A stretch of 64,000 nucleotides of DNA, from positions 2,767,027-2,831,026 of the forward strand of contig NZ_CP025096.1 of assembly GCF_002831565.1 (NCBI RefSeq), given 5' to 3'. Both the position numbers and the translations under genes were made by a program. Source of the stretch: Spirosoma pollinicola. GTDB taxonomy: Bacteria; Bacteroidota; Bacteroidia; Cytophagales; Spirosomataceae. The notes beneath the pieces are model-generated. The model saw nothing but the letters and a program-made list of their open reading frames with translations. It was not told the DNA's origin and did not search any database. Below, one piece after another: positions 9,074-50,596 of the stretch (within the stretch, counting starts at the first letter, position 1; each line of letters opens with the position of its first letter).

Positions 9074-10123
9074 TTAAAAATCAGCGTCAAATGTAATGCC
9101 TTTGGGTTCTTCGGCAACCTGAATGGGCATTGAGTTTTCGGCATCCTGTGGCTGCGAAGCGGCCGCTTTCATGGCCTTGAACTTCGACATTACTTCGCCC
9201 CGCTGGTATTCGCCAACGCGTTTTTCGAAGAAATTGGTTTTGCCCTGCAGCGAAATCATATCCATGAAATCGAAGGGGTTTGCTACATTATACAGTTTGC
9301 GCAGGCCAAGGGTAGTGAGCAGGTGATCGGCCACGAAAGCGATATACTGCTTCATCAGTTCGGCGTTCATGCCAATAAGCGATACCGGCAGCGCATCGGC
9401 TACGAACTCCTGCTCAATTTCGACCGCGTTACGAATGATGTCGTAAATCTCCGATTCCGGTAATTTATTGACAATATGGTCGGTATAAAGCATACACGCA
9501 AAATCGCGGTGCAGCCCTTCATCGCGTGAGATCAGCTCGTTCGAGAACGTCAGGCCGGGCATCATACCGCGCTTTTTAAGCCAGTAAATGGAGCAGAACG
9601 AACCCGAAAAGAAAATACCTTCGACCACAGCAAAGGCAATAAGCCGCTCGGCAAACGAACCGTTGTCAATCCAGCGCAGTGCCCACTCGGCTTTTTTCTG
9701 GACACACGGAATCGTGTCGATAGCGTTCAGGAGCCGGTCTTTTTCCGTCGCATCTTTAATGTAAGTGTCAATCAGCAGGGAATAGGTTTCAGAGTGGATA
9801 TTCTCCATCATGATCTGGAACCCGTAGAAACACTTAGCCTCGGCATACTGCACCTCCGACAAGAAGTTTACGGCTAGGTTTTCGTTCACAATCCCGTCCG
9901 AAGCGGCAAAGAACGCCAGTACATGCGAAATGAAGTGGCGTTCGCCATCGTTGAGGCTGTTCCAGTCTTTCATATCCTGACCGAGGTCAATCTCTTCGGC
10001 TGTCCAGAACGAGGCTTCATGGGTTTTGTAGTACTCCCAAATGTCCCAGTGTTTAATGGGGAACAGCACGAAGCGGCCTTTGTCTTCTTCTAAAATCGGT
10101 TCAATTACATCAGTCTGTACCAT
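9074..10123 (-). CDS. nrdB: Class I ribonucleotide reductase, small subunit R2
   Basis: Protein of 349 residues. It holds the di-iron/tyrosyl-radical site of class Ia reductase. Aligned by eye to the eukaryotic R2, the iron ligands are Asp76 (ASDGIVNEN), Glu107 and His110 (MENIHSETY), with further Glu and His in the VVEGIFFSG and SRDEGLH helices; the radical tyrosine would be Tyr114. The C-terminus ITFDADF resembles the eukaryotic FTLDADF tail that docks on R1. It delivers the radical to NrdA for dNTP synthesis in the cytoplasm. nrdA is not adjacent. No NrdR box is evident to me in the 265 bases upstream. Confidence 0.95.
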
Positions 10124-10388: not shown

Positions 10389-12731
10389 CTAGGCGGTTGG
10401 GCTAAATCCTCGGGAAATAAGTAAAACTATTTTATCGGTCGTTAATTGCCTGTTGGAGCTGTTTAGAGTGGTTCGTTCCTCTGCAATGCTTTTAAGTAAA
10501 AGGTGATATTTAATCGATAGAATTTTATGTCGTCTGTCCCAAGCAACAGCTTCTTTTATCAGTTCGAGCGATAAAGAAATTTCTTTTTCAGAACTTTTGA
10601 AGGCGTGCGCATGAATTATTGGTGAAGTATCGTCCGGCATGTTTTCAAGTAGTTGAGGGGCATGTTCTATAACAAGCTCTATAACGTATAAGCCGGAGTT
10701 GATTTCACTCGTTGTAAGTCTATTAGTAGTTTGATCTTTCCACTGTCTAATTTTCTTTGCGATGTCAGATGAGATTTGCTGTTGATGAAACGTTAATTTA
10801 TTTGTCAATCTGCCCCATTCACAAATCTGCTCCCAGACAATAGCTGGAATACTACACAACCAATTTGCATTGCTTAGTTGTTGTAATTTCTCTGTATCGT
10901 CGTCCGTCATCGACTTACGTATGGGCGGGTTTGCCGGATCAATCAGATCGGAATAAATTGAGCTAAGGTCAACAGGAAACTCTTTTCCGCGTAATTGCTT
11001 CCAGCAATCTTCTTTCTTAGCCCACTCTCCATAAAGTGCGCCCGTTGCACTGGCTTTGATAGCTTTTTCTACAGAAACCATCAAGTCATAAAGCAGAGCG
11101 CGAAGAGCATCAGAAATGCGTTGTTGTTTCCAAATTTTCAGTAAGTCCAGTCTTCCATTAAGAGTTCTGCTTAACCAAGCCAATGTGTAGGGAACCGTTA
11201 CATAACGCAGGTCACCAATGGCTTTAGGTTGTCGACCATATACTTCTTCTGCGGTTCTGAATAGAACCGCTTTAGCAATTGAATCCTCAAAGAATACACT
11301 TGTTGGTTTTTGATCTTTAGTCTTCAAATTAGTCATGAAAATGCCATAATTCTTTTGACTACCGCGCACAACGTGCCAAGGCAATTCATTCCAGACGTTA
11401 ACATATTTCGCGAGATCTTCTTTGACAAATAGTTGCTTGCGGGGGTTTTGCAACTCAAATTTTTTGCGATTTGCTGCACTAAATTCCCGTGCCAGCGCAT
11501 TTTTGTATTGTGCCCGTGCCCGTTCGTAAAACCAATGAGTTTGATAGCTTTGCCCCGATTGTGCAGGTGTCCAGATAGTACGCGATAGTTTCTCCAGTTC
11601 GGTATGAAATGGGTTATTCGCGCTCAAATCTGATTCAGAAACCTTATTTTGCGTGTTGGCATAGCGCGAAATGTTGTTGACAATAGAACCAACATCATCG
11701 CGGGTTTTAATGACCGACAGTTTCATCTGCACATAAATTCCACTAACGTCCGCTTTGTCTTTACGATGCGTATAGAAAATGCTCGCCGTTGTTTGTCCAC
11801 CATTTACGATCTGTAGACCTGTTAATGACTTTATAGCTCGATTATCAGGGGTTAACTCAACAGACTCGGCAGTGGCTGCAATGCCATTGTTATACGCCAG
11901 GAACATGTGTGGTTCCTTAAGAATCGTTTGTCGGATGCCCTTGTTTGTCCCCACTGTAAACTGTAAAAACGAACGTACATTCATTTCCAGTAAGCGCGCT
12001 CCGTACTCCTCGTATACGTTAGCTAGGATATCGCCCGGCACAGCGGCCAAGTAAGTTTCATACTGGTCATTACCAGTTGGAATCGGTAAACAGGGTAAAC
12101 TTTTTCCGGTTCGCTGGACAAAATCAATAAAAATTGGGGTGGGTTCACCTTGTTCAATTCTGGCCAAATACCGGATGTCTATAATTCGATACGTAAGCAG
12201 CAGATCGGTTTTGTCTAAGCGATCGCTTTGTGAGGGCTCCACTGAACATTCGCCATCCGTCAAAATAAATAGATTAGCCCGTACCAATGCATTTCGATTG
12301 TGACAGATTTCTTTGGCAAAATCATAGGCCGATGCCGATTCGTCCATGTCCTGCCAGTACCCTTTAAAGGCGTTGTTCAGAAAACGGCGACACTGGTTAA
12401 ATGCACTTGTAATCTCCTCCTTACCAATTCGTTGCGGCTCGTCATACCCCTTGTAAATGGTGACAAACAAATCAAGATTTTCGGCTCCCTCGCTAAGTGC
12501 ATATCCGTTAATCTTATGCATCTTCTGACCGGCAGCATTCTCTTTCACATCACGGCACTCGCGGGCGTTTTCGGTGTCGCCAGTTGCCGACAGGTAGTCA
12601 TCCAAAACAATGCTCGTAAATATTTCTTCCTTAAAACCGCCTTGTTCACCCGCTTCGGCGGTGGCATTGATTCGCTGACGGAGATCTGTGTAAAATTGAA
12701 GTAGCTGCGTTTGTTCGCGTTCGGTTGACAT
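10389..12731 (-). CDS. AIPR (abortive infection phage resistance) family protein
   Basis: Protein of 780 residues, last gene of the seven-gene defence operon, starting 20 bases after the DUF4420 gene. The AIPR domain spans about residues 240-600: FLAYNNGIAATAESV (278-291), GLQIVNGGQTTASIFY (305-320) and the SRYANTQNKVSESDLSANNP stretch (355-374). The N-terminal 200 residues have a nuclease-like pattern (INGYALSEGAENLDLFV), which is suggestive only. AIPR proteins were first noted in lactococcal phage-abortive systems and recur in operons with Z1 ATPases; the biochemical role is not established. The last 180 residues have no motif I recognise. Confidence 0.85.
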   Translation of the reverse strand: MSTEREQTQLLQFYTDLRQRINATAEAGEQGGFKEEIFTSIVLDDYLSATGDTENARECRDVKENAAGQKMHKINGYALSEGAENLDLFVTIYKGYDEPQRIGKEEITSAFNQCRRFLNNAFKGYWQDMDESASAYDFAKEICHNRNALVRANLFILTDGECSVEPSQSDRLDKTDLLLTYRIIDIRYLARIEQGEPTPIFIDFVQRTGKSLPCLPIPTGNDQYETYLAAVPGDILANVYEEYGARLLEMNVRSFLQFTVGTNKGIRQTILKEPHMFLAYNNGIAATAESVELTPDNRAIKSLTGLQIVNGGQTTASIFYTHRKDKADVSGIYVQMKLSVIKTRDDVGSIVNNISRYANTQNKVSESDLSANNPFHTELEKLSRTIWTPAQSGQSYQTHWFYERARAQYKNALAREFSAANRKKFELQNPRKQLFVKEDLAKYVNVWNELPWHVVRGSQKNYGIFMTNLKTKDQKPTSVFFEDSIAKAVLFRTAEEVYGRQPKAIGDLRYVTVPYTLAWLSRTLNGRLDLLKIWKQQRISDALRALLYDLMVSVEKAIKASATGALYGEWAKKEDCWKQLRGKEFPVDLSSIYSDLIDPANPPIRKSMTDDDTEKLQQLSNANWLCSIPAIVWEQICEWGRLTNKLTFHQQQISSDIAKKIRQWKDQTTNRLTTSEINSGLYVIELVIEHAPQLLENMPDDTSPIIHAHAFKSSEKEISLSLELIKEAVAWDRRHKILSIKYHLLLKSIAEERTTLNSSNRQLTTDKIVLLISRGFSPTA

Positions 12732-12751
12732 GGTGTAGTAAGGATAGAAAT

Positions 12752-13765
12752 TTATAATTGGGCGAAAACATCGGCTGCTTCAACTTGAAAAGGCTGGCAA
12801 GCCACTAGGGCAATGGCGTAACGAACGGCACTTACCCCGGCAGGAAGGTGGTTAAGCTTTAACCGTGGAAATCCTTCACTTACCCGAAAAACCTGTTCAG
12901 TACGTAGCGTATACGTGGGCGTATCGTACGTATGACGATGAACGGGCTGATAACCAACCTGATAAAGTTTTAGACGAAACTGAGTTCGTAGCGTAGGCGA
13001 TGCACTCAATTTGTTCAGCAACAAATCAACCAACTCGTTGAGTGATTGACCGCCATTAGGACGAACGTCCAGTGTAAGCAGCCAGAGCCACAAATGCGAT
13101 AAGCCGCTATCATCTAATTGTCGTTCGTTACTGATTTGAATATGTTGCGGATTAACGGCAGATGTTGTTTTAAGCTCAACAGCCCGGTCGGAAAGCTGAA
13201 AATCGTGAATACTCCCGCCCGGTCCCGCCCAGGCAGTTAGGCAGTCAGCCGGATTGCTACCCGTATCGAGCCAGCGATTTAGAAACCATAACTCGCCAAA
13301 TAAACCCTGTCGCTTTTCGACCGACAGGCCACCCGGCGATAGACTCTCAAATAAAGTCGTCCACTGTTCCAATCGGCCAAGCAATGCACTCAATACATTA
13401 TTAGGCTCGGTTTCATCGGCGATTTGAGCAATCAAATCTTCGCAGACTACACCGAACAAATCAGCCTGTGTGGCATCTGTGAGCGTAATTAAAACCAGTT
13501 GGTGCCCAGGTCGGGCAGTGTCGCTTTCAACGTTAAGCGTGAGGCCATTTAGGGTTAACGGCTCCGTGACGACGGGTGCTGGCAGGCTTACGGCCAGCAA
13601 ACGCTGCACTGTACTCGCGGTTCGACGAATACCGGCGAAAATATCAGGTTTTACTGATGCAGCATACCGACGATATAGTAGACCGGATGTGGCAGTCGTA
13701 TCCGCTTCGAGATCAGTCCAGAGCGTTTCAATCTTCGTTGTCATCGGGCTCATCATCTGAAGCAT
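12752..13765 (-). CDS. DUF4420-type PD-(D/E)XK nuclease-like protein
   Basis: Protein of 337 residues (330 if started at the ATG at 13744). The family signature is in the middle: GLFGELWFLNRWL (about 150), then GPGGSIHDFQLSDRAVELKTTS (about 186-207). In this the Glu of GELWF, the Asp of HDF and the ELK triplet form a PD-(D/E)XK active site. It is therefore likely a DNase of a restriction-type system. Its start overlaps the Z1 gene by up to 38 bases, and it ends 20 bases before the AIPR gene. This order (Z1, DUF4420, AIPR) recurs in known prokaryotic defence islands. Confidence 0.8.
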   Translation of the reverse strand: MLQMMSPMTTKIETLWTDLEADTTATSGLLYRRYAASVKPDIFAGIRRTASTVQRLLAVSLPAPVVTEPLTLNGLTLNVESDTARPGHQLVLITLTDATQADLFGVVCEDLIAQIADETEPNNVLSALLGRLEQWTTLFESLSPGGLSVEKRQGLFGELWFLNRWLDTGSNPADCLTAWAGPGGSIHDFQLSDRAVELKTTSAVNPQHIQISNERQLDDSGLSHLWLWLLTLDVRPNGGQSLNELVDLLLNKLSASPTLRTQFRLKLYQVGYQPVHRHTYDTPTYTLRTEQVFRVSEGFPRLKLNHLPAGVSAVRYAIALVACQPFQVEAADVFAQL

Positions 13766-16499
13766 CTTGGAGGTTGATGTAGTCTACCAATTGCTCGTGT
13801 ACAGCGTAAGAAATTGCACTGTCATGATCGCTCGTTGGGAAACTGATTGCGTACCCAATAATGGCCGGACTGTCAACAGGTAGCTTAGCCCCTTCCGGGT
13901 CAAGGGTGTATAGTAGTAGTAGAGCGGTTTGTTTACTCCTGATTTTATCGTTAGTACGGACAATTTCACCATTTGGGTAGTCCGGTTCGCCTTTTTTCTT
14001 GTCTGCTTCTCGTTTGAGTGCTGTCAATCGCATGGCTTCGGCGTATTGCTCCGGTGTCAGGTCGATGAATTCGTGGTCGGGACTGATGATGTGCGATTTC
14101 TTAAGATAATAAATTCCGTCACCTGTGTTCTTATTATCAGCCGTTCGCAGAAGATTGCCCACTTTTACAAGTCGGCCACCAATTGAGTAATCTGTGGTTC
14201 GGTTGTGGTCAGGGTTTTTTCGTGCCATGAGGGCAACCGTCCAGCTTACAAGTTCGTTGTGGCCAAGTTGTGCTCCGATAAATTTAGCTATTGTTTGTGC
14301 GTTAGCTCGGTAAAGCGTTTTGGCCACCCGGTATTCGTTCAGAAATGCCACCACCGATACGGCCGGTACGCCCTCCCAAATGTAATTAGCCACTTTCATG
14401 CGGCTCTCTGGGCCAAGTCCCGCCACAAACCGGCGCGTTGCGTCAAGATTACTGTTGATAAGTTCAGGCTGAGTTTGGAACAGGTACGTTTCGACCAGAC
14501 GCCCGGCAAAGGATAGCCGCATCTCAACGGCCCGGCGCATTTTATTAGCCGCCGTAACCTGTAGTACCCCATCATGCGTTTGCACACCCAAGGCGTATTC
14601 ATCCGGTGTGCTGCGCATACTAGCCATTCGGTCGAACTCCGAGCGGAGGTCTTCCGATGCTTTGGTAATGTGGCAGAACCACTCATTCAGTTCGCGGCTA
14701 GTAAACAACCGACATAGATCTACAAAGCCGGGTCGGTAACCAAACCAGCGGCCCATCTGCATGAGGGTATCATACATTTTTGACGGACGCAGGAAATAGC
14801 TGACTGACAGCCCCTCAAGCGTTAGTCCGCGCGAGAGTTTGTCCCCCCCAATAGCGATTACGGACAGACCTTCTTTTTCTTCGTAGTAATCCAGAATGTC
14901 ACCCGACCGACCGTTTATCTCTTTTACTTTTATGCGGGCCGCAGCCGGATACAAATGAGGTAATACGTCGGTCCAACTGTGAACCTGCATAGCCGGGTCA
15001 AGCGTCTGCAAAGGGGAGTTCAGAATACGCTGTGTAGTTGTCCTAAAAGACAGATAGCCGGGTGAATCCTGCTCAAATGTTTGACGCATCAAGGTCAAAA
15101 CAATCGGGTCATTCTGATCTAGGCCACGCTTGTAATAAGCGAATACACTGTCTACTAACTCTGTGATCTGCTCCTGCCTAACATTGAAGCGGGTAACGTG
15201 AATTAACATGGAGTTATGTTTGCTTCCCTGCCCGCGCAGTCGCCGAATGGCACATACTAGAAGAAAGCACCGAATAGCTCGCTTCAATGATTCTGGAATG
15301 GCGTCGGGCAAGGGCGCTTCCCGCTCTTTTTCAGGCATAAACGACCCAGCATCATCGACCCGATGTACAATGGGAAGTGTATCATCTAAGGTGTCATCAT
15401 CGCCTAATACATCAAACCCAAATACCTGTTCCGGGCCAATGTAGTTGGTAGGTGCTGGAAGATTGATAATAAAATCACGCGGGAAAAGCTGATCGGCGGC
15501 AATTGGTACAAAAATATTGGCAAAAGGAGTAGCCGTATAGCCCACGTAAGCACTCTTGTAGAACAGCCGCAGCACATCGCGGATTTGACCGTTGATTCGG
15601 GTGCCCTTGTCGGGGTCTTTATTGGTGTTAATCGAGGCATGATCGGCCTCATCGTCAATTAGTAACAGCGATTTGGACGCAATATATCGGTTTCCTTCTG
15701 CGTCGGTCTGTCCCTTTGACCGGAGCCAGGTGAGCAATGATTTAAGAACGCTGGGATTCTTCTTAACGACTAGCAGTATTGGCTCTCTTGTGTCAAAATT
15801 TGTAATGCCGGATGTTGCAAACGCTTTAGGCGTAAAATCGCCCAAATCATGACTTGATGTAATCGAATGAACGACTAAGCCTTTTCTAATCTGACTGACC
15901 CCGAATTCATGGGTCGCTTTATAATAATCACGCTCTGACTGCGTATCGAAACCCAGAAAGCCCTCGTCTAAACGCAGTTGGGTTTGGGCCCGCAGGTTGT
16001 TATGAACTCCCGCCAGCACGATTACCAACTTAAACCCGGCGTCAACCGCTTTACAGATTAGCCCTGTGTAGTTAGCCGTTTTGCCCGACTGCACTTGTCC
16101 TACTACCAACCCGCGCTTGTCTATTTTTACATCTGCTACACTCGGGTCGAAAAGCTGATCCACAATATCATCAGTCAACAGGTCGAGCCGACGCAGCGTA
16201 TTGGGCGCAAACCCGTTGAAGTCTTCGAGATAACTTTCATACCGTTTCCAGAATGACCAGTCGATGGCTTCCCTGCGGGCGTTGAGCCATGGGCGACGCG
16301 AGTCTTTACCTTCCAGTGTAATCCAGCCTTCGGCTCGGATATTATAGAGAGTTTCTACCTCTTTAATCAGCATCTCCCGGTCGATATGACTAAACTGAGG
16401 AATGCCTAAAACTATGTTCACATTTTGATCAATAATATCACGGGTAAGCGACGTGTTGGTAGGCAGAAGCGTTCGTAACGTCCGTAAAGCATTTTGCAT
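13728..16499 (-). CDS. Z1-domain superfamily II helicase-like ATPase
   Basis: Protein of 923 residues. The helicase-like motifs are all visible: Walker A GQVQSGKTANY at 134-144, LLLIDDEADHASI (Walker B, DEAD-like) at 278-290, motif III YVGYTATPFANIF at 318-330, and the second RecA-like lobe with LSRGLTLEGLSVSYFLRP followed by QMGRWFGYR (motif VI). This is the Z1 family, DNA-stimulated ATPases of restriction-like systems. It should supply the motor or translocase of the operon. It starts seven bases after the GHKL ATPase gene and overlaps the DUF4420 gene. Length agrees with full-size members and no disruption is seen. Confidence 0.88.
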   Translation of the reverse strand: MQNALRTLRTLLPTNTSLTRDIIDQNVNIVLGIPQFSHIDREMLIKEVETLYNIRAEGWITLEGKDSRRPWLNARREAIDWSFWKRYESYLEDFNGFAPNTLRRLDLLTDDIVDQLFDPSVADVKIDKRGLVVGQVQSGKTANYTGLICKAVDAGFKLVIVLAGVHNNLRAQTQLRLDEGFLGFDTQSERDYYKATHEFGVSQIRKGLVVHSITSSHDLGDFTPKAFATSGITNFDTREPILLVVKKNPSVLKSLLTWLRSKGQTDAEGNRYIASKSLLLIDDEADHASINTNKDPDKGTRINGQIRDVLRLFYKSAYVGYTATPFANIFVPIAADQLFPRDFIINLPAPTNYIGPEQVFGFDVLGDDDTLDDTLPIVHRVDDAGSFMPEKEREAPLPDAIPESLKRAIRCFLLVCAIRRLRGQGSKHNSMLIHVTRFNVRQEQITELVDSVFAYYKRGLDQNDPIVLTLMRQTFEQDSPGYLSFRTTTQRILNSPLQTLDPAMQVHSWTDVLPHLYPAAARIKVKEINGRSGDILDYYEEKEGLSVIAIGGDKLSRGLTLEGLSVSYFLRPSKMYDTLMQMGRWFGYRPGFVDLCRLFTSRELNEWFCHITKASEDLRSEFDRMASMRSTPDEYALGVQTHDGVLQVTAANKMRRAVEMRLSFAGRLVETYLFQTQPELINSNLDATRRFVAGLGPESRMKVANYIWEGVPAVSVVAFLNEYRVAKTLYRANAQTIAKFIGAQLGHNELVSWTVALMARKNPDHNRTTDYSIGGRLVKVGNLLRTADNKNTGDGIYYLKKSHIISPDHEFIDLTPEQYAEAMRLTALKREADKKKGEPDYPNGEIVRTNDKIRSKQTALLLLYTLDPEGAKLPVDSPAIIGYAISFPTSDHDSAISYAVHEQLVDYINLQDASDDEPDDNED

Positions 16500-16505
16500 A
16501 CAAAA

Positions 16506-17921
16506 TCAGCAGGTAAGGGATTGAACGTACTCCGGAAAGAGTGAAAAGGGATGGATGCTAAAAATAAGATTGCGGGCTTCGTCGGGCGTTTTGCCTTTGG
16601 CGCACTGTGCCTGAAACATGGCCGATGCTGCTTGCTTTATGGGTTCATGGCTGACTTGCTCAAACGGCTGGGCTTGCTCTTCGGGAGACTCAGTTTCCCG
16701 AATCATAATCGAACGAATAGGAATCGTTTCTTCAACAAATTTTAGCAGGTTATTCAATGCCGAACCCGCGTCGGGATACTTGGCTATAAATGCTGTTACA
16801 AGCGGATGATGGCGATTGATTTCATAGTGCCGCTTGTCGTGGCGTTTACGTTCGAGCCATAATTCCTGGTGAGCAATCGGAATGCCGGGGTTGTTGATGC
16901 GCCCTACGTTTCTGTACACCGCTATAGCTTTGTCGCGTACCGCTTTAGCGAAGGTTTTTAATGGCCCTGCGCTTCCATAGGGTGGATGCGCCATCGACTT
17001 TTTAACGTCAATGTGCCAGTCTGTATCGAGCGTATTGGGGATGTCGACCTGAATGCGGGCTAGTTTTACATGTTCTTCTTTTTTGAACATGCCCAGCCAA
17101 CTACCAGCTACTAAGAGTCTTTCGTTGCGGTATATATAAAAACCTTGCAGATCATTCCAGCCCCGGCTGCCACCCGCTTCGGCAAACTTATCCGTCGTTA
17201 ATCGTTTGTGATATGGTAGTACGTAGCCTTTCACACTCACGGCCCCGTTTTGATAAAATTCTTCGCCACAGGGTTGTGCGCCGTCGGCTCCCTTCAGAAA
17301 CGGGTCCCATGGTTTGATTGGGTTCTCATTGAAATAGAGTTTGAACCGGCCTCGCTCCAAAAACCGATGAAATACCATTGCTAAGTGTTGCTTTACCGTA
17401 TCGGCAATACTCAGAAATTGGGCATGGGCTTTCTCGTCATTAGCAGGGGCATTGGTTACGACGCGGTCGAGCAGTTCCCAAAGTACAATAGTGCCACTTT
17501 TTTGCTGGTTCAGTAAAACGGGAAGACCATAAGCAGGCTCGGGCTTGACCAAATTCCAAAAGCCGGTGTCGGCTACGTAATCTAAATCCCATGCCCAATA
17601 GCAAACGCTGCTGCCTTCTGGTTTTGAGAAGACAGTTACCTTGCGGCACTGCGAAAACGAAGCTGTTTTTAAACCCAGTCCAAACCGGCCTAAATCGCTG
17701 GGGTCGCGAGGTTCGTTGGGGTTGCGGGAACCCGGACGAAGCGCCGTAACTAATTCGGCCTCCGACATGCCGTGACCACTGTCACGAATACTGATGTATG
17801 AACTGGCTCCCTGCCAAATGAAATCAACGTATATATCGTGAGCCCCCGCCGAAATAGAGTTATCAATAATATCGGCGACAGCGGTTTCAATTGTGTAGCC
17901 AATGTCACGAAGGGTTTCAAT
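16506..17921 (-). CDS. GHKL (MORC/MutL-like) ATPase of the defence operon, no standard start codon
   Basis: The frame is open from 17948 to 16506. The GHKL ATP-binding motifs are the N-box ETAVADIIDNSISAGA, the G1 box RDSGHGM and the G2 box GRFGLGLKTASFSQC. The first ATG (17768) is the Met of the G1 box, so translation from it (420 residues) would lose the N-box with its catalytic Glu and Mg-binding Asn. No ATG, GTG or TTG lies between that point and the in-frame TAA at 17949-17951, which ends the preceding gene. I place the start at an ATT (17921) that fits IETLRDIGYTIETA; reinitiation after the upstream stop is an alternative. Such ATPases accompany Z1 proteins in restriction-type operons. 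Either expression is unusual or the gene is damaged. Confidence 0.75.
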   Translation of the reverse strand: METLRDIGYTIETAVADIIDNSISAGAHDIYVDFIWQGASSYISIRDSGHGMSEAELVTALRPGSRNPNEPRDPSDLGRFGLGLKTASFSQCRKVTVFSKPEGSSVCYWAWDLDYVADTGFWNLVKPEPAYGLPVLLNQQKSGTIVLWELLDRVVTNAPANDEKAHAQFLSIADTVKQHLAMVFHRFLERGRFKLYFNENPIKPWDPFLKGADGAQPCGEEFYQNGAVSVKGYVLPYHKRLTTDKFAEAGGSRGWNDLQGFYIYRNERLLVAGSWLGMFKKEEHVKLARIQVDIPNTLDTDWHIDVKKSMAHPPYGSAGPLKTFAKAVRDKAIAVYRNVGRINNPGIPIAHQELWLERKRHDKRHYEINRHHPLVTAFIAKYPDAGSALNNLLKFVEETIPIRSIMIRETESPEEQAQPFEQVSHEPIKQAASAMFQAQCAKGKTPDEARNLIFSIHPFSLFPEYVQSLTC

Positions 17922-17948
17922 GAGTGCCGACGGGTTCGGCGGGGCTGG

Positions 17949-18215
17949 TTAAAAATGTGGGTCGTAGTATTCTTCCCGGAAGCCAATTTTCAACAAATGA
18001 CCACCGAGGTAGTAATTTCCATTTTTTCGTAAATACGCCTTTCGAAGAGCGGGCGGTTGATTATCACGGCTGACAACTACATATGATTTCTTTACGTCAA
18101 CCACAGTAAATGCTTGCCGGTCTGACCACAGTATAAGCGTAGCACCGTCACCAATTTTTGGATCAGCGGGTTTACTTTCAGCATACACGAGATTAGTTAG
18201 AGTGCCGTAAGTCAT
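17949..18215 (-). CDS. Small conserved hypothetical protein, 88 residues
   Basis: The sequence GDGATLILWSDRQAFTVVDV, then a basic middle and REEYYDPHF at the end, recalls small uncharacterised bacterial proteins with a DGAT...WTDRHA...V pattern; I know no function for them. Its ATG overlaps the stop of the HNH gene by four bases (ATGA), so translation is coupled. Its TAA stop is in the same frame as the GHKL ATPase that follows directly. It is not a usual member of Z1/AIPR operons as I know them, so it may be an accessory gene picked up together with the HNH gene. Confidence 0.7.
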   Translation of the reverse strand: MTYGTLTNLVYAESKPADPKIGDGATLILWSDRQAFTVVDVKKSYVVVSRDNQPPALRKAYLRKNGNYYLGGHLLKIGFREEYYDPHF

Positions 18216-19396
18216 CTGTCGAAAAGATTTAGTCTGTATTCCAAAAATTCTTTCTTAGGTTGGTAAGACCGGGGTAGGTGTATAGGTTTGTACTCAAAGC
18301 GACCAAAAAAGTCATTATAGAATTCTTTATGCGAAGTCGCTTTTAGGCGTCTTGATATAAGAACTTTATAATCAGTGTCGATACAAATTAATCCCTTTTC
18401 ATAAGCTCGATCATATAAATTAGATAAACATATTCCGTTCTGAGGATTTAATCGTTCTTTTTCATTTTCAGCCCAGGGAATAATATGACCAGCCACTAAA
18501 AGTTCAGGTGTATTTATGCCTGAAATCGCACATTTACTTGCATAAGTTTTTAGAATCATCTTCCGAAAAACGTTCTGATTTATTCTGGTTTTTACATTCC
18601 TTACTATATAATCACCTTTCAGATCAGAAACTTGAAAATCTACATCAGAGTCTGATTCTTCAATACGTTTATCTTGGTATTCAGAAAGCTTACGTTCGCT
18701 TTCATAAGTTAAATCTTCTTGATTGCTCAAAAACTCATCCCATATGGGTTTTACTTGTCCCGCGCCCTCCTCTAATCCAATTATGCCATTTTGTTTATTG
18801 TATGGATCGGTGAAAGCAAAATTGTTTAATTTCATTGCAACAGAGCTCTCACTTTTTCCAATCAATTTTGCCAGTTTTTTTATTTCCTCATTGGTTAGAT
18901 TAAGTTCACCAGGTGGAAGTTTCAAGTACAAATTAAACACAGACAAAAGTTGAGCTCGATTCCATTGTTCGGATACAGTATTATAAGTTACATCGGAATA
19001 ATACTCGTTTAAGTGAAATATAAACTTACTTGGATACTTAGCTTTCACCTCTACATCTATAACTTCTATTCTGCCAAAATATATAAAATTGGTGTGATGA
19101 ATTGCTCTAAAAAATAGGTGTATTTCTTGTCCGTTAGACCTGGCATGAACCATTCTTTCTTCGGCAAAATGATCGTTTGGGCCTTCCCAGTGCAAATATT
19201 CGTCTAATAATTTATCTGCGTATTGTTCTGAAGAGCCTTGTTTTTCAGCCGTGACGAACAGGATTATCTTTGAATCACCTTTGGGAGTTACTACACCGCG
19301 AGCCAAAGCCTGATATGCGGCATATCCCCAAACTTCTGCTAAGAATTTGCGGGAGTATTCTTCGCCAATCTTTATTAAATCAAAGGAAACAGGCAT
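18212..19396 (-). CDS. HNH endonuclease with DUF3427-like N-terminal domain
   Basis: Protein of 394 residues. The N-terminal part contains KIILFVTAEKQGSSEQYADK and FHL/HWEGPNDH-type motifs (residues 43-78), as in the DUF3427 region of some helicase-nucleases. The middle (SVFNLYLKLPPGELNLTNEE, then LAKLIGKSESSVAMKLNNFA) is a helix-turn-helix-like segment often found before HNH_2 domains. The C-terminal HNH_2 nuclease has YASKCAISGI, VAGHIIPWAENEKERLNPQNG and LYDRAYEKGLI. It overlaps the Vsr gene by 17 bases and the next gene by four. The gene is visibly richer in A+T than the ATPase genes after it. It probably cuts foreign DNA, perhaps reading modification. Confidence 0.82.
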   Translation of the reverse strand: MPVSFDLIKIGEEYSRKFLAEVWGYAAYQALARGVVTPKGDSKIILFVTAEKQGSSEQYADKLLDEYLHWEGPNDHFAEERMVHARSNGQEIHLFFRAIHHTNFIYFGRIEVIDVEVKAKYPSKFIFHLNEYYSDVTYNTVSEQWNRAQLLSVFNLYLKLPPGELNLTNEEIKKLAKLIGKSESSVAMKLNNFAFTDPYNKQNGIIGLEEGAGQVKPIWDEFLSNQEDLTYESERKLSEYQDKRIEESDSDVDFQVSDLKGDYIVRNVKTRINQNVFRKMILKTYASKCAISGINTPELLVAGHIIPWAENEKERLNPQNGICLSNLYDRAYEKGLICIDTDYKVLISRRLKATSHKEFYNDFFGRFEYKPIHLPRSYQPKKEFLEYRLNLFDR

Positions 19397-19820
19397 TTAC
19401 TGGAATGATAGTGGGATGTTTTTTTACATTTTGACATGTCGCATCCTTCGTTTTACGATTCAACTCACACTCAAATATGGTTATAATTCTCCAGCCTTCG
19501 GCTACTAATTTGGCTTGATTTTCGGTGTCACGGCGTTTATTTCCATTGATTTTATCAAGCCACCATTCGGTACGGGTCTTAGGGACAACAAAGTAGCGAC
19601 AACCGTCGTGGCCGTGAAAAAAACGGCCATGCACGAAAATTGCCGTTTTGTACTTGGGTAGCACTACGTCGGGCTTACCGGGCAGTCTTTTATCGTGAAG
19701 TCGATAACGGAAACCATGTGCATGAAGAAACTTGCGGACAATAAGCTCTGGTTTTGTGTCTTTGCTTCTTACCCGAGACATATTGTAACTACGCTGCTCA
19801 GGTGTGTGTACGTCGGTCAT
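19380..19820 (-). CDS. Vsr-family (very short patch repair) endonuclease
   Basis: Protein of 146 residues, a usual Vsr length. It starts MTDVHTPEQRSYNMSRVRSK, followed by KPELIVRKFLHAHGFRYRLH, LPGKPDVVLPKY with the catalytic Asp, and the FVHGRFFHGH histidine cluster, ending with GWRIITIFECEL. In the Escherichia coli enzyme the first Cys of HGCFWH is a zinc ligand; here it is Arg, although a Cys follows in HGHDGC. Vsr nicks T:G mismatches left by deamination at Dcm sites. In Z1-type operons the relative is thought to act as a restriction subunit. It is the first gene of the operon, but no cytosine methyltransferase is beside it. Confidence 0.9.
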   Translation of the reverse strand: MTDVHTPEQRSYNMSRVRSKDTKPELIVRKFLHAHGFRYRLHDKRLPGKPDVVLPKYKTAIFVHGRFFHGHDGCRYFVVPKTRTEWWLDKINGNKRRDTENQAKLVAEGWRIITIFECELNRKTKDATCQNVKKHPTIIPVNACFL

Positions 19821-19873: not shown

Positions 19874-20191
19874 TCACAACCACCGCTTCACCCCGCCATG
19901 ATGCGAACAGGTGCCACGCCTTGACTGGCTGAAACTATACGAATTATCCCGGCATTGAGCTGTTGCTCCGGCCCGTGGAGCGGTATAAAAGGTTGGCGAC
20001 TGAACCCGATTGCCCTCGCTGTTGGTGTAATAATGGGTTGAACCAGATGATGGGCGAGCCGGGCGATGGGCGCGATGATGACGAACAGAGGTTCGAGAAC
20101 GGTGAGCAGGTGTTTGCGCTTCGGCAATTCCCAAAACAGCGTTGATCAGGAAAACAGTCGCAAGGGTCAGGAAGCGAAGGTGGTGGCCCAT
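19874..20191 (-). CDS. DUF3761-type small secreted protein
   Basis: Protein of 105 residues with a signal peptide (about residues 1-25, ending AEAQ), then a basic, His/Arg-rich stretch, and a C-terminal motif CRDNSYSFSQSRRGTCSHHGGVKRWL (residues 80-105) that is the core of DUF3761. The two cysteines and paired histidines could bind metal or form a disulfide. The function is unknown. It lies upstream of the defence operon on the same strand but is separated by a hairpin, so I do not count it as part of the system. Confidence 0.7.
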   Translation of the reverse strand: MGHHLRFLTLATVFLINAVLGIAEAQTPAHRSRTSVRHHRAHRPARPSSGSTHYYTNSEGNRVQSPTFYTAPRAGATAQCRDNSYSFSQSRRGTCSHHGGVKRWL

Positions 20192-21549: not shown

Positions 21550-21672
21550 TGGACAATCGTATTGAATTAGTTTCGTGTTCCCAAATCTGGAACAATCCTT
21601 TGAAAGCAGTCTGATTTCCCGGAAACTACCCCAGCCTGTTTTACGTTGTTCTTTAGAATAAGCCAACCGAAC

Positions 21673-24564
21673 GTGACAGAAGAAAAAACAGTCGAGCGTC
21701 AGCCCGGACTTACTGATATTGACCTCACAGGCTACGACCAGATTGAAGTGCTGGGTGCCCGCGAACACAACCTCAAAAACATTGACGTCGTTATTCCCCG
21801 TAACAAACTGGTGGTCGTAACGGGTATCAGCGGAAGCGGCAAATCGTCGCTGGCCTTCGATACCATTTATGCCGAAGGTCAACGGCGATACATGGAGAGT
21901 TTTTCGGCCTATGCCCGCTCGTTTATCGGCGACATGGAGCGGCCCGATGTCGACAAGATCAACGGCCTGAGTCCGGTGATTTCCATCGAGCAGAAAACAA
22001 CGTCTAAAAACCCTCGCTCAACGGTTGGGACGACTACTGAAATCTACGACTTTCTGCGTTTGCTCTACGCCCGTGCGGGTGAAGCGTATTCGTACGTAAC
22101 GGGCCGCAAAATGGAACGGCAGTCGCAGGACCAAATTATCGACACGATTCTGGGGCAATACGAAGGCCAGAAAATAACGCTGCTGGCCCCCATCATCCGA
22201 AGCCGAAAAGGACATTACCGCGAACTATTCGTGCAGATTGCCAAAACGGGTTATACCAAAGTGCGGGTCGATGGCGCGGTGCAGGACATCGTGCCGAAAA
22301 TGCAGCTGGACCGCTACAAAATCCACGATATCGAAATTGTTATTGACCGGCTGGTCCCTAAAACGGAAGATCGGTATCGGCTCAGTCAGTCGATTCAAAC
22401 GGCTATGAAGCAGGGCAAAGGAGCCATGCAAATGCTGGACGGCGAAGGGAAATTGATTTATTTCTCCCAGAACCTGATGGACCCCGAATCGGGGATTAGT
22501 TACGACGAACCATCGCCAAACTCGTTCTCGTTCAACTCGCCCTATGGAGCCTGTCCGGTTTGTAACGGCCTGGGTGTAGTTGAAGAAATCACGGAAGAAT
22601 CGGTTATTCCCGATAAATCGCTGAGTATCAGTCGGGGAGCTATTGCCCCGCTGGGTGAATACCGTGAACTGTGGATTTTTAAGGAGATTGAAGCGATTCT
22701 GAAAAAATACAAACTCAATCTCACCACGCCGGTTGTCAAGTTTCCCGAAGAGTTGCTCCACGCGCTCATGTACGGAACGGAAGAAGAAGCCACGGTTCCG
22801 TCGAAAAAGTATGTCGGTGAGGATTATTACAGCTTCAAATTCGAAGGCATTGTCAACTTCCTGAAACGTCAGCAGGAAAACAGTACCGACAAAATTCAGG
22901 AGTGGCTAAAGGATTTTATGGTCGTGAAAAAATGCCCCGAATGCGAGGGCGCACGGCTAAAGAAAGAGTCGCTGTTCTTTAAGGTCGCCGAGAAAAACAT
23001 CTCTGAACTGGCCCGGATGGATATTTCGGAACTGACCGAGTGGTTTGAGGACGTAGAGAGCCGCATGACCAACCGGCAGAATATTATCGGAAAAGAGATC
23101 CTCAAAGAGATTCGCAAACGCATCGGTTTCCTGCTCGACATTGGTCTCGACTACCTGACGCTCGATCGTCCCCTACGGACATTGTCGGGGGGCGAAGCAC
23201 AGCGTATCCGGCTGGCTACCCAAATCGGGACGCAGTTGGTGGGCGTGCTGTACATCATGGACGAACCGAGTATCGGTTTGCACCAGCGCGACAACGTGAA
23301 GCTGATCGACTCGCTGAAAAACCTGCGCGATTTGGGAAACACCGTTCTGGTTGTTGAGCACGATAAAGACATGATGCTCGAATCGGACTTTATACTTGAT
23401 ATTGGTCCCGGTGCCGGGCGGCATGGCGGTCAGGTCGTCAACCAGGGAACACCTGAAGAGTTCTTGAAAAATCAGTATGTTGGCGTTGCGGGAAGCAGCA
23501 CCACCGCCGATTACCTAAGCGGTCGGCGGGCCATTGAGGTGCCCAAAGAACGCCGGAAAGGAAATGGTAAATTTCTGGTCATCAAGAATGCAACGGGGCA
23601 CAACTTGAAAAATGTAACGTTGCGTTTGCCGCTTGGCCGTATGGTCACCATTACGGGCGTTTCGGGTAGCGGCAAGTCATCGCTCATTCACGAAACCTTG
23701 TTTCCAATTCTGAACCGGCATTTTTTTAGATCGAAGCGCGAATCCTTGCCGTTCAAATCGGTTGACGGACTGGAACATCTGGACAAAGTGATCGAGGTCG
23801 ACCAGTCGCCCATTGGCCGGACGCCCCGTTCGAATCCAGCCACTTACACGGGTATGTTCTCGGAAATCAGGACGTTGTTTGCGGAGTTACCCGAAGCGAA
23901 AATTCGGGGCTACAAACCCGGTCGGTTCTCGTTCAACGTGAAAGGTGGGCGATGTGAAGACTGCGAAGGCGCGGGGATGAAGAAGATTGAAATGGAATTT
24001 CTGCCCGATGTTCACGTCATGTGCGAAACCTGCAAAGGCAAACGCTTTAACCGCGAAACCCTGGAAGTCCGGTTCAAAGGCAAATCCATTGCCGATGTCC
24101 TCGATATGACCGTTGAACAAGCGCTGGATTTCTTCGCCAGTCAGCCCAAAATTCTGCGCAAGGTAACGACGATGAACGACGTTGGTCTGGGCTACATTAC
24201 CCTTGGCCAACATGCCACCACGCTATCGGGAGGAGAAGCCCAACGGGTAAAACTTGCCGAAGAATTGTCGAAGAAAGACACAGGTAAAACGCTTTACATT
24301 CTCGATGAGCCAACTACTGGTCTGCATTTTCAGGACATAGCGCACCTGCTCGATGTATTGAACAAACTCGCCGACAAGGGCAATACGGTACTGATTATCG
24401 AACACAATCTGGACGTGATTAAAGTATCCGACCACCTTATCGACCTCGGTCCTGAGGGCGGTAATAAGGGCGGTTACATCATCGCCGAAGGCTCTCCCGA
24501 AAAGGTGGCTGAGGTGAAAGGAAGCTACACCGGCAAGTTTTTGAAGATGGAGCTGGCGGGTTAG
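21673..24564 (+). CDS. uvrA: Excinuclease ABC subunit A
   Basis: Protein of 963 residues from a GTG at 21673 (reading [12 protein letters not shown]); the frame also offers a TTG at 21646, and there is no ATG near the N-terminus. Both ABC modules are complete: Walker [14 protein letters not shown] and [13 protein letters not shown], signatures [12 protein letters not shown] and [12 protein letters not shown], Walker [12 protein letters not shown] and [11 protein letters not shown]. Zinc modules are [17 protein letters not shown] and CEDCEGAG with CETCKGKRF. It scans DNA for bulky lesions in nucleotide excision repair as a dimer that loads UvrB. It is divergent from higBA. Confidence 0.97.
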
Positions 24565-50286: not shown

Positions 50287-50596
50287 GCGAACTCTTGTCT
50301 GGAAATGCCTGGTCATGACAAATTGGTTTGTTAAGCGGGTATATTTTACTCATTCAGATTACAGCGTTTAAACAAATAAATCCATTGAATCTACTTTAAA
50401 ACCATCTTCTCCCAGGCGATTATATAATTACTCACCACACAGGGAATGCTACAATAGAGCATGCGTAAGTCGTCGGATATTTGCGCTATGAGACCATGAC
50501 GTTTCAGTAAGTTCATTTTGTCTACCGATAAATAAAATGAGATCAAATTATTGACAGTCAAGTATTTACTTTATTAAAACTAAACTCCTCTCAGCC
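50287..50596. other. Intergenic region between divergent genes
   Basis: This 310-base gap separates the ThuA gene (minus) from the muramidase gene (plus). It is A+T-rich near 50520-50580 and holds no open frame, no clear repeat and no confident promoter that I can point to. Confidence 0.5.

Follow-up and report, generated by a model that had tools for sequence, protein, structure and literature searches.

The window, a 64,000-nucleotide stretch of the Spirosoma pollinicola chromosome (positions 2767027 to 2831026 of an 8.79-Mb single-contig genome), contains what is, judged from its sequence, an MZA-type restriction-like operon at a variable site between uvrA and an nrdB-like gene. In this operon, a cassette encoding a DUF3427-HNH nuclease and a small protein, p88, appears to have replaced the cytosine-5 (C5) methylase gene together with the start of the gene for the ATPase MzaB. 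An initial annotation had described a seven-gene defense operon here. All seven open reading frames (ORFs) were found on the minus strand at the positions given there, in the order vsr, HNH gene, p88, GHKL ATPase (MzaB), Z1 (MzaC), DUF4420 (MzaD), and AIPR (MzaE). The seven genes are real, but the coordinates proposed for the GHKL ATPase gene were wrong and the operon is chimeric. It looks like a disarmed or rebuilt form of a known kind of system and not like one that was always methylase free. The features of the locus are as follows.

19380-19820, minus strand: vsr-like gene, altered (Pfam and NCBIfam Vsr; eight-sequence alignment; alignment with Escherichia coli Vsr)
19445-19446, no strand: left junction; homology to G372 vsr stops at 19446 (blastn of the G372 stretch from vsr end to MzaB start against the window)
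18212-19396, minus strand: DUF3427-helical-HNH nuclease, 394 residues, frame intact (full-length relatives in G249, G445, G487, and G439)
18989-19396, minus strand: DUF3427 domain, HNH protein residues 1-136 (PF11907, 9.5e-9, above the cutoff if scanned alone)
18377-18532, minus strand: HNH_2 nuclease domain, HNH protein residues 289-340 (PF13391, 4.8e-10)
17949-18215, minus strand: p88 small protein, with a 4-base overlap (ATGA) with the HNH gene; short form, as in G360 and G419
17950-17951, no strand: right junction; the p88 stop codon (17951-17949) abuts MzaB codon 10 (blastn and comparison with G372)
16506-17948, minus strand: MzaB, GHKL ATPase of the MutL/MORC-like type; 480-codon frame that lacks its start and first nine codons, with the earliest ATG (17768) past the N-box
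13728-16499, minus strand: MzaC, Z1-domain protein (Pfam, PADLOC, NCBIfam)
12752-13765, minus strand: MzaD, DUF4420 PD-(D/E)XK family protein (Pfam, PADLOC, NCBIfam)
10389-12731, minus strand: MzaE, AIPR protein (Pfam, PADLOC, NCBIfam)
21646-24564, plus strand: uvrA, left flank of the variable site (NCBIfam; genus comparison)
9074-10123, minus strand: ribonucleotide reductase small chain (nrdB-like), right flank of the variable site (Pfam; genus comparison)

Junctions of the cassette and the start of MzaB

The closest relative of the locus is found in another genome of the same genus, G372 (G and L numbers are our designations for genomes and loci), whose MzaB is 92% identical to that of the window. 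In G372, uvrA is followed by vsr, a 127-residue ORF, a C5 methylase gene (PF00145), and MzaB-C-D-E; the methylase gene overlaps the start of MzaB, which begins MNSIYTLTQPAPPNPSAL. When blastn was used to compare the window with the G372 segment covering the vsr end through the MzaB start, both ends of that segment matched (19473-19446 and 17950-17921), and the only further match was one of 16 bases (50362-50377). As a result, 1,495 bp in the window (19445-17951) stand in place of 1,733 bp in G372 (L047 8228-9960), and the displaced G372-type segment comprises the end of vsr, the small ORF, the methylase gene, and the first nine MzaB codons. The right junction falls on the p88 stop codon itself, and p88 genes elsewhere terminate at that residue too. 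The G372 protein starts with MNSIYTLTQ followed by PAPPNPSAL, and in the window PAPPNPSAL stands directly after the p88 stop.

The statement of the initial annotation that no methylase lies on either side of the operon was borne out, since tblastn of the 64-kb window with 14 C5 queries revealed no remnant of a C5 methylase (best E value, 0.18). The same search showed no methyltransferase pseudogene or gene of that family just outside the operon within the window.

The MzaB frame is open upstream as far as the p88 TAA, with no ATG, GTG, or TTG ahead of the N-box (ETAVADIIDNS). Its first usual start codon is ATG 17768, and the 180 bases upstream of this ATG are coding, corresponding to the ATPase N terminus including the N-box. 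The first rare start codon is ATT 17921, 28 bases past the p88 stop. Hence, one trait of MZA systems is lacking here, namely an MzaB that combines a start codon with an intact GHKL ATPase: the N-box is present, and none of the three codons precedes it. A genome search with MzaB found no second copy. Among solved structures, the best relatives of G372 MzaB were MutL (6e-5) and MORC2 (0.002).

The family assignments made earlier were reproduced, with Pfam matches to Vsr, HNH_2, HATPase_c_3, Z1, DUF4420, and AIPR and none for p88. The gene spacing was reproduced in part. The 17-, 4-, and 38-base overlaps and the 20-base gap were found as described, the gap given as 7 bases is really 6, and the genes do not all overlap or abut if MzaB is begun at ATG 17768, which leaves the 180-base gap before it. 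PADLOC and NCBIfam label the GHKL, Z1, DUF4420, and AIPR proteins as MzaB, MzaC, MzaD, and MzaE, all in one operon, which agrees with the earlier placement of the operon among restriction-like systems with MutL/MORC-type ATPases. All four NCBIfam scores are far below the equivalog cutoffs (MzaB, 342 of 850 bits; MzaC, 674 of 1500; MzaD, 133 of 420; MzaE, 414 of 1050), and the MzaB cutoff was reached by none of 395 genomes of the phylum. No match to MzaA was found among the ten window proteins scanned with PADLOC and NCBIfam, the presence of an MzaA model in the two libraries being unchecked. A promoter and terminator scan performed no better than it did with shuffled sequences.

MzaB loci and the uvrA-nrdB site in other genomes

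MzaB loci were collected from 200 genomes of the family (14 matched) and 395 genomes of the phylum (15 matched), with the window included in both sets. We excluded before counting G360, whose contig breaks off within MzaB; G431 (L058), whose contig carries no MzaC; and the phylum loci L137, L139, and L141, which also lack MzaC. The 22 nonwindow loci carrying both MzaB and MzaC comprised 11 from the family (L047, L049 to L057, and L059) and 11 from the phylum (L128 to L136, L138, and L140). A C5 methylase was present in the fetched stretch of 21 of these 22 loci, as a fragment only in L057, and G326 (L050) was the exception; this confirms the initial view that such operons normally include a C5 methylase. 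A start codon lies ahead of the N-box in 20 of the 21 methylase-bearing loci; the L138 frame stays open up to the edge of its contig.

Directly upstream of MzaB, p88 was found in 3 of the 11 p88-matched genomes among 222 family genomes searched. These three (the window, G326, and G360) belong to three genera, and the 5' end of MzaB is missing from every one of them. On the G326 contig, an HNH gene interrupted by a stop is followed by p88 and then by an MzaB without the N-box. G360, from another genus, has vsr, an HNH gene of the 257-residue type, the short 88-residue p88, and an MzaB that sets in abruptly at about residue 65; its contig ends 0.3 kb past this onset. The HNH gene and the 88-residue gene therefore do accompany such operons elsewhere, in G326 (with MzaB and MzaC) and in G360 (with MzaB), and the possibility raised by the initial annotation, that the pair never co-occurs with them, fails. 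No methylase was seen on the G326 (6,966 bp) and G360 (8,277 bp) contigs; two matches were obtained (E values, 0.048 and 0.002), and the one at 0.002 falls on p88 and is at chance level. For 2 p88-MzaB loci versus 20 methylase-bearing loci, before G360 was added, Fisher's test gave a P value of 0.004. Adding G360 (3 versus 20) gives 1 in 1,771 by hand arithmetic, assuming independent loci, which may not hold. A missing MzaB 5' end together with no visible methylase in 3 of 3 p88-MzaB loci, versus 0 of 20 methylase-bearing loci with a visible start, is the joint loss that would be expected if the methylase shields the host from MzaB-driven attack.

The site beside uvrA was examined by tblastn with the named genes in 36 genomes of the genus (beside nrdB in G484 and G748, whose uvrA lies on a separate contig). 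MZA genes with vsr and a methylase occupy it in two genomes (G372 and G484), and both modules occur in one, the window. The HNH family without MZA genes was found in 14 (G249, G445, G487, G439, G454, G424, G361, G469, G332, G466, G460, G419, G451, and G748), accompanied by p88 in 5 of these (G249, G445, G487, G419, and G361, the last frameshifted). Remnants of vsr and p88 are present in G478, and G433 holds a vsr fragment. A distance of 0.3 to 1.2 kb separates uvrA from nrdB, without any of the named genes, in four genomes (G463, G442, G399, and G481), none of these genes was found in the 3.5 to 12.8 kb fetched from 11 others (G391, G457, G475, G382, G407, G414, G436, G448, G472, G429, and G348), and two (G490 and G749) were left unresolved. 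The locus also shows two distinct modules for attacking DNA taking each other's place at one chromosomal site and combining into hybrids.

A DUF3761 gene (19874-20191) lies between uvrA and vsr in the window and also adjoins uvrA in G332, G460, G451, and G490. In Spirosoma telluris (L071 10687-11731), the gene for the ribonucleotide reductase small chain, which lies next to the cassette, was recovered in three tblastn pieces, possibly reflecting a frameshift in this expected core gene or a sequencing error.

The HNH nuclease, p88, and vsr

The HNH/DUF3427-like label of the initial annotation stands for one part of the protein. A Pfam scan of the whole 394-residue HNH protein did not detect DUF3427, and residues 1-136 scanned alone scored 35.4 bits against a cutoff of 27.7. 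Full-length relatives are present in G249 and in G445, G487, and G439 (83, 84, and 68% identical to the G249 copy). Among the genomes of the genus with an HNH family member (at least 100 bits), 7 of 17 have no PF00145 gene (G249 among them; G490 is only 82% complete), so in these genomes the HNH protein cannot rely on C5 self-methylation. With C5 methylases alone considered, this makes a modification-dependent nuclease more likely than a Type II enzyme partnered by a C5 methylase. The AlphaFold model of the HNH protein was poor (predicted local distance difference test [pLDDT] score, 55), and no relatives of known structure were found for its DUF3427 part or for Z1. In G460 (L102 9105-10618), a 257-residue HNH gene is followed by a C5 methylase fragment; the two may be what is left of a Type II system that included an HNH protein of this family.

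p88 occurs in a short form of 88 residues, common to the window, G360, and G419, and elsewhere in a long form of 108 residues. It was detected in 2 of 295 genomes of the class (both in the genus), in the 11 of 222 family genomes mentioned above, and at five loci in a genome-contig scan; in the searches made, it was found only within this bacterial family, to which Larkinella also belongs, as G351 shows. It has weak matches to PHROG families of unknown function, and its AlphaFold model (pLDDT, 65) gave no structural match at an E value of 0.001. A decay private to the window through a 20-residue deletion, suspected from five sequences, was rejected when the same short form was found in G360 and G419. 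An in-frame p88-MzaB fusion by stop read-through was not supported, the two genes being in frame with each other in G360 and the window and out of frame in G326. We also rejected p88 as a methylase relic. The similarity of the L059 methylase to p88 regions (E values, 0.002 to 0.003) was attributed to chance; shuffled p88 sequences gave an E value below 1 in 88 of 200 cases, the best being 0.006, and a profile comparison gave a 3% probability.

Cys66 of E. coli Vsr binds zinc. The window Vsr has Arg at the Cys position of the HGCF motif, where E. coli Vsr and all seven aligned relatives have Cys, and its last residues are foreign, derived from the cassette side. The G360 vsr is open to its end and keeps this Cys. 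A vsr remnant lies upstream of the HNH gene in 8 of the 14 HNH-site genomes, including all five with p88, and the HNH start codon is at or beside vsr codon 65 in G424, G361, and G469 and, at another locus, in G472. Insertion of a homing-type HNH gene into vsr was rejected, since tblastn found no vsr 3' part downstream of HNH. Because vsr accompanies a C5 methylase in most of the MZA loci collected, the vsr remnants beside HNH suggest that a methylase was formerly there; the available text of PMC2292703 likewise places Vsr frequently alongside methylases in operons. The vsr remnants at L048 10599-10814 and L070 9023-9238 hold short CGCCGG-rich inserts, which may be a small dispersed repeat; inserts of this pattern are absent from the window.

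Possible explanations and known systems

On balance, we lean toward a locus with a disarmed MZA part, in which the nuclease forms a module of its own that is probably modification dependent. The MZA part would be disarmed because the ATPase start was lost along with the methylase, so that MzaB would not be made in an active form, and with the ATPase gone as well, the loss of the methylase would be tolerable. The HNH protein, whose gene may be transcribed from the former vsr promoter, would act alone as an endonuclease directed by DUF3427, which in SauUSI is the domain proposed to recognize modified cytosine, and would need no C5 methylase for self-protection. MZA-type systems are poorly understood, and an apparent natural knockout of this kind makes the roles of the methylase and the ATPase directly testable.

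Several observations weigh against this reading. The methylase absence in G326 and G360 rests on short contigs. These end inside MzaC and MzaB, respectively, so that a methylase further along is possible; it lies beyond MzaE in L055, L133, and L134. Both assemblies are fragmented (520 and 890 contigs; completeness, 87 and 71), and a single PF00145 gene is present on a different G326 contig. A single ancient event with later erosion is indistinguishable from repeated events. The MzaB-E frames are otherwise open, an MzaB begun at ATT 17921 would retain the conserved core, and the NCBIfam MzaB model aligns to the window frame from model position 1. The ratio of nonsynonymous to synonymous substitutions (dN/dS) between the window and G372 is 0.05 to 0.11, a value that mostly reflects time before the event, with dS very high for MzaC and MzaE. 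As for the nuclease, the Pfam scan did not detect DUF3427 in the G249 HNH N terminus, and C5 methylases occur in 10 of 17 HNH genomes versus 13 of 19 genomes without HNH (Fisher P, 0.73); a genome-wide exclusion of the two, expected if HNH cut all 5-methylcytosine (5mC) DNA, was rejected on these counts. Finally, the MzaB of G348 (619 residues; L056 8556-10415), adjoined by vsr and two C5 methylases, has at its N terminus a homologue of the helical domain found in HNH-family proteins (39% identity over 120 residues to that of L102 and 30% over 106 to that of the window; E values against this two-sequence set, 3e-21 and 3e-10). This fusion indicates that the HNH and MZA modules may be functional partners.

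Such a partnership is the core of a working methylase-free variant, in which MzaB would be translated from ATT 17921 by coupling to the p88 stop and HNH, through DUF3427, would replace the methylase as the self/nonself discriminator that triggers MzaB-C-D-E. The open MzaB-E frames, the position of the ATT just ahead of the conserved core, the recurrence of the order vsr-HNH-p88-MzaB in another genus, and the G348 fusion speak for it. However, the MzaB frames of G360 and G326 lack the N-box, so an active ATPase is impossible there from any start codon; vsr is damaged, and HNH-p88 is retained without MZA in other genomes. We consider this variant unlikely. The broader proposal, that MZA-type systems swap the self-marking methylase for DUF3427-HNH and p88 sensing invader DNA directly, with MzaB as a rare-start or truncated non-ATPase subunit, appears similarly doubtful. 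If true, the vsr-HNH-p88-MzaB order in two genera and the G348 fusion would be traces of a switch from methylation-based to modification-sensing immunity. The suggestion in the initial annotation that this variant recognizes invaders another way is likewise in doubt, given that the methylase was lost with the MzaB start and that all three p88-MzaB loci lack the MzaB 5' end.

Decay of the whole operon, including HNH, to a state of no present function seems still less probable. The Cys-to-Arg change in Vsr, the lost MzaB start, and the broken HNH or p88 genes of G361, G326, Larkinella knui, and G478 would fit it, but HNH keeps its full 394-residue frame here and its full length in G249, G445, G487, and G439, and the short p88, common to G360 and G419, is no private deletion. 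Least credible of all is a split restriction-modification system with self DNA protected by a methylase elsewhere, as the initial annotation had offered. The genome does hold two PF00145 genes outside the locus, and only two, but these are 28 to 30% identical to the displaced G372-type methylase and 61% identical to each other, and each adjoins another GHKL ATPase, a double-HATPase protein, in its own cluster. These two related clusters (L060 5300-9917 and L061 12429-16964) each consist of a C5 methylase and, after it, the double-HATPase protein (837 and 885 residues) and an additional small ORF (298 and 224 residues). PADLOC names both methylases and gives no match for the double-HATPase protein of L061 and weak partial ones for that of L060.

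Among openly licensed papers, no report of the present arrangement was found, and the Vsr-bearing systems in the available text of PMC12458937 and PMC11090510 have no bearing on this locus. With MZA (mzaABCDE), which the accessible portions of PMC9523054 attribute to Gao et al. (2020) and in which MzaA is described there as a sigma factor, the window shares homologues of MzaB, MzaC, MzaD, and MzaE in one operon. It differs in its subthreshold scores, the added HNH and p88 genes, the missing MzaB start, and the absence of an MzaA match in our scans. The same portions of PMC9523054 (Nat Commun, 2022) describe a candidate "Type II" Z1/PD-(D/E)XK/cytosine methyltransferase/AIPR system, likened to mzaABCDE at low identity, which shares with the window a Z1 protein of about 925 residues, a PD-(D/E)XK protein (printed there with DUF4220), AIPR, and a MORC-like ATPase. 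The cytosine methyltransferase is the core gene common to all variants described there, whereas the window has none and no remnant of one.

The MORC/paraMORC restriction-modification operons of PMC2292703 (Biol Direct, 2008) combine, in the text available, a GHKL ATPase with an SFII helicase, restriction-fold nucleases, Vsr, methylases, and AIPR. The window has the GHKL ATPase, a helicase-like ATPase, and a restriction-fold nuclease. That text mentions paraMORC1 with HNH and contains no mention of a p88-like gene; a nearby methylase is described as frequent and not universal, whereas in the window it has been replaced. SauUSI, as described in the excerpts of PMC3874153, is a Type IV enzyme that cuts DNA containing 5mC and 5-hydroxymethylcytosine and whose C-terminal DUF3427 is proposed to recognize the modified substrate. 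Like SauUSI, the HNH protein of the window couples DUF3427 to a nuclease. In SauUSI the nuclease is of the PLD type, ATPase/helicase motifs are present, and ATP or dATP is required, whereas in the window DUF3427 lies N-terminal to a helical domain and HNH.

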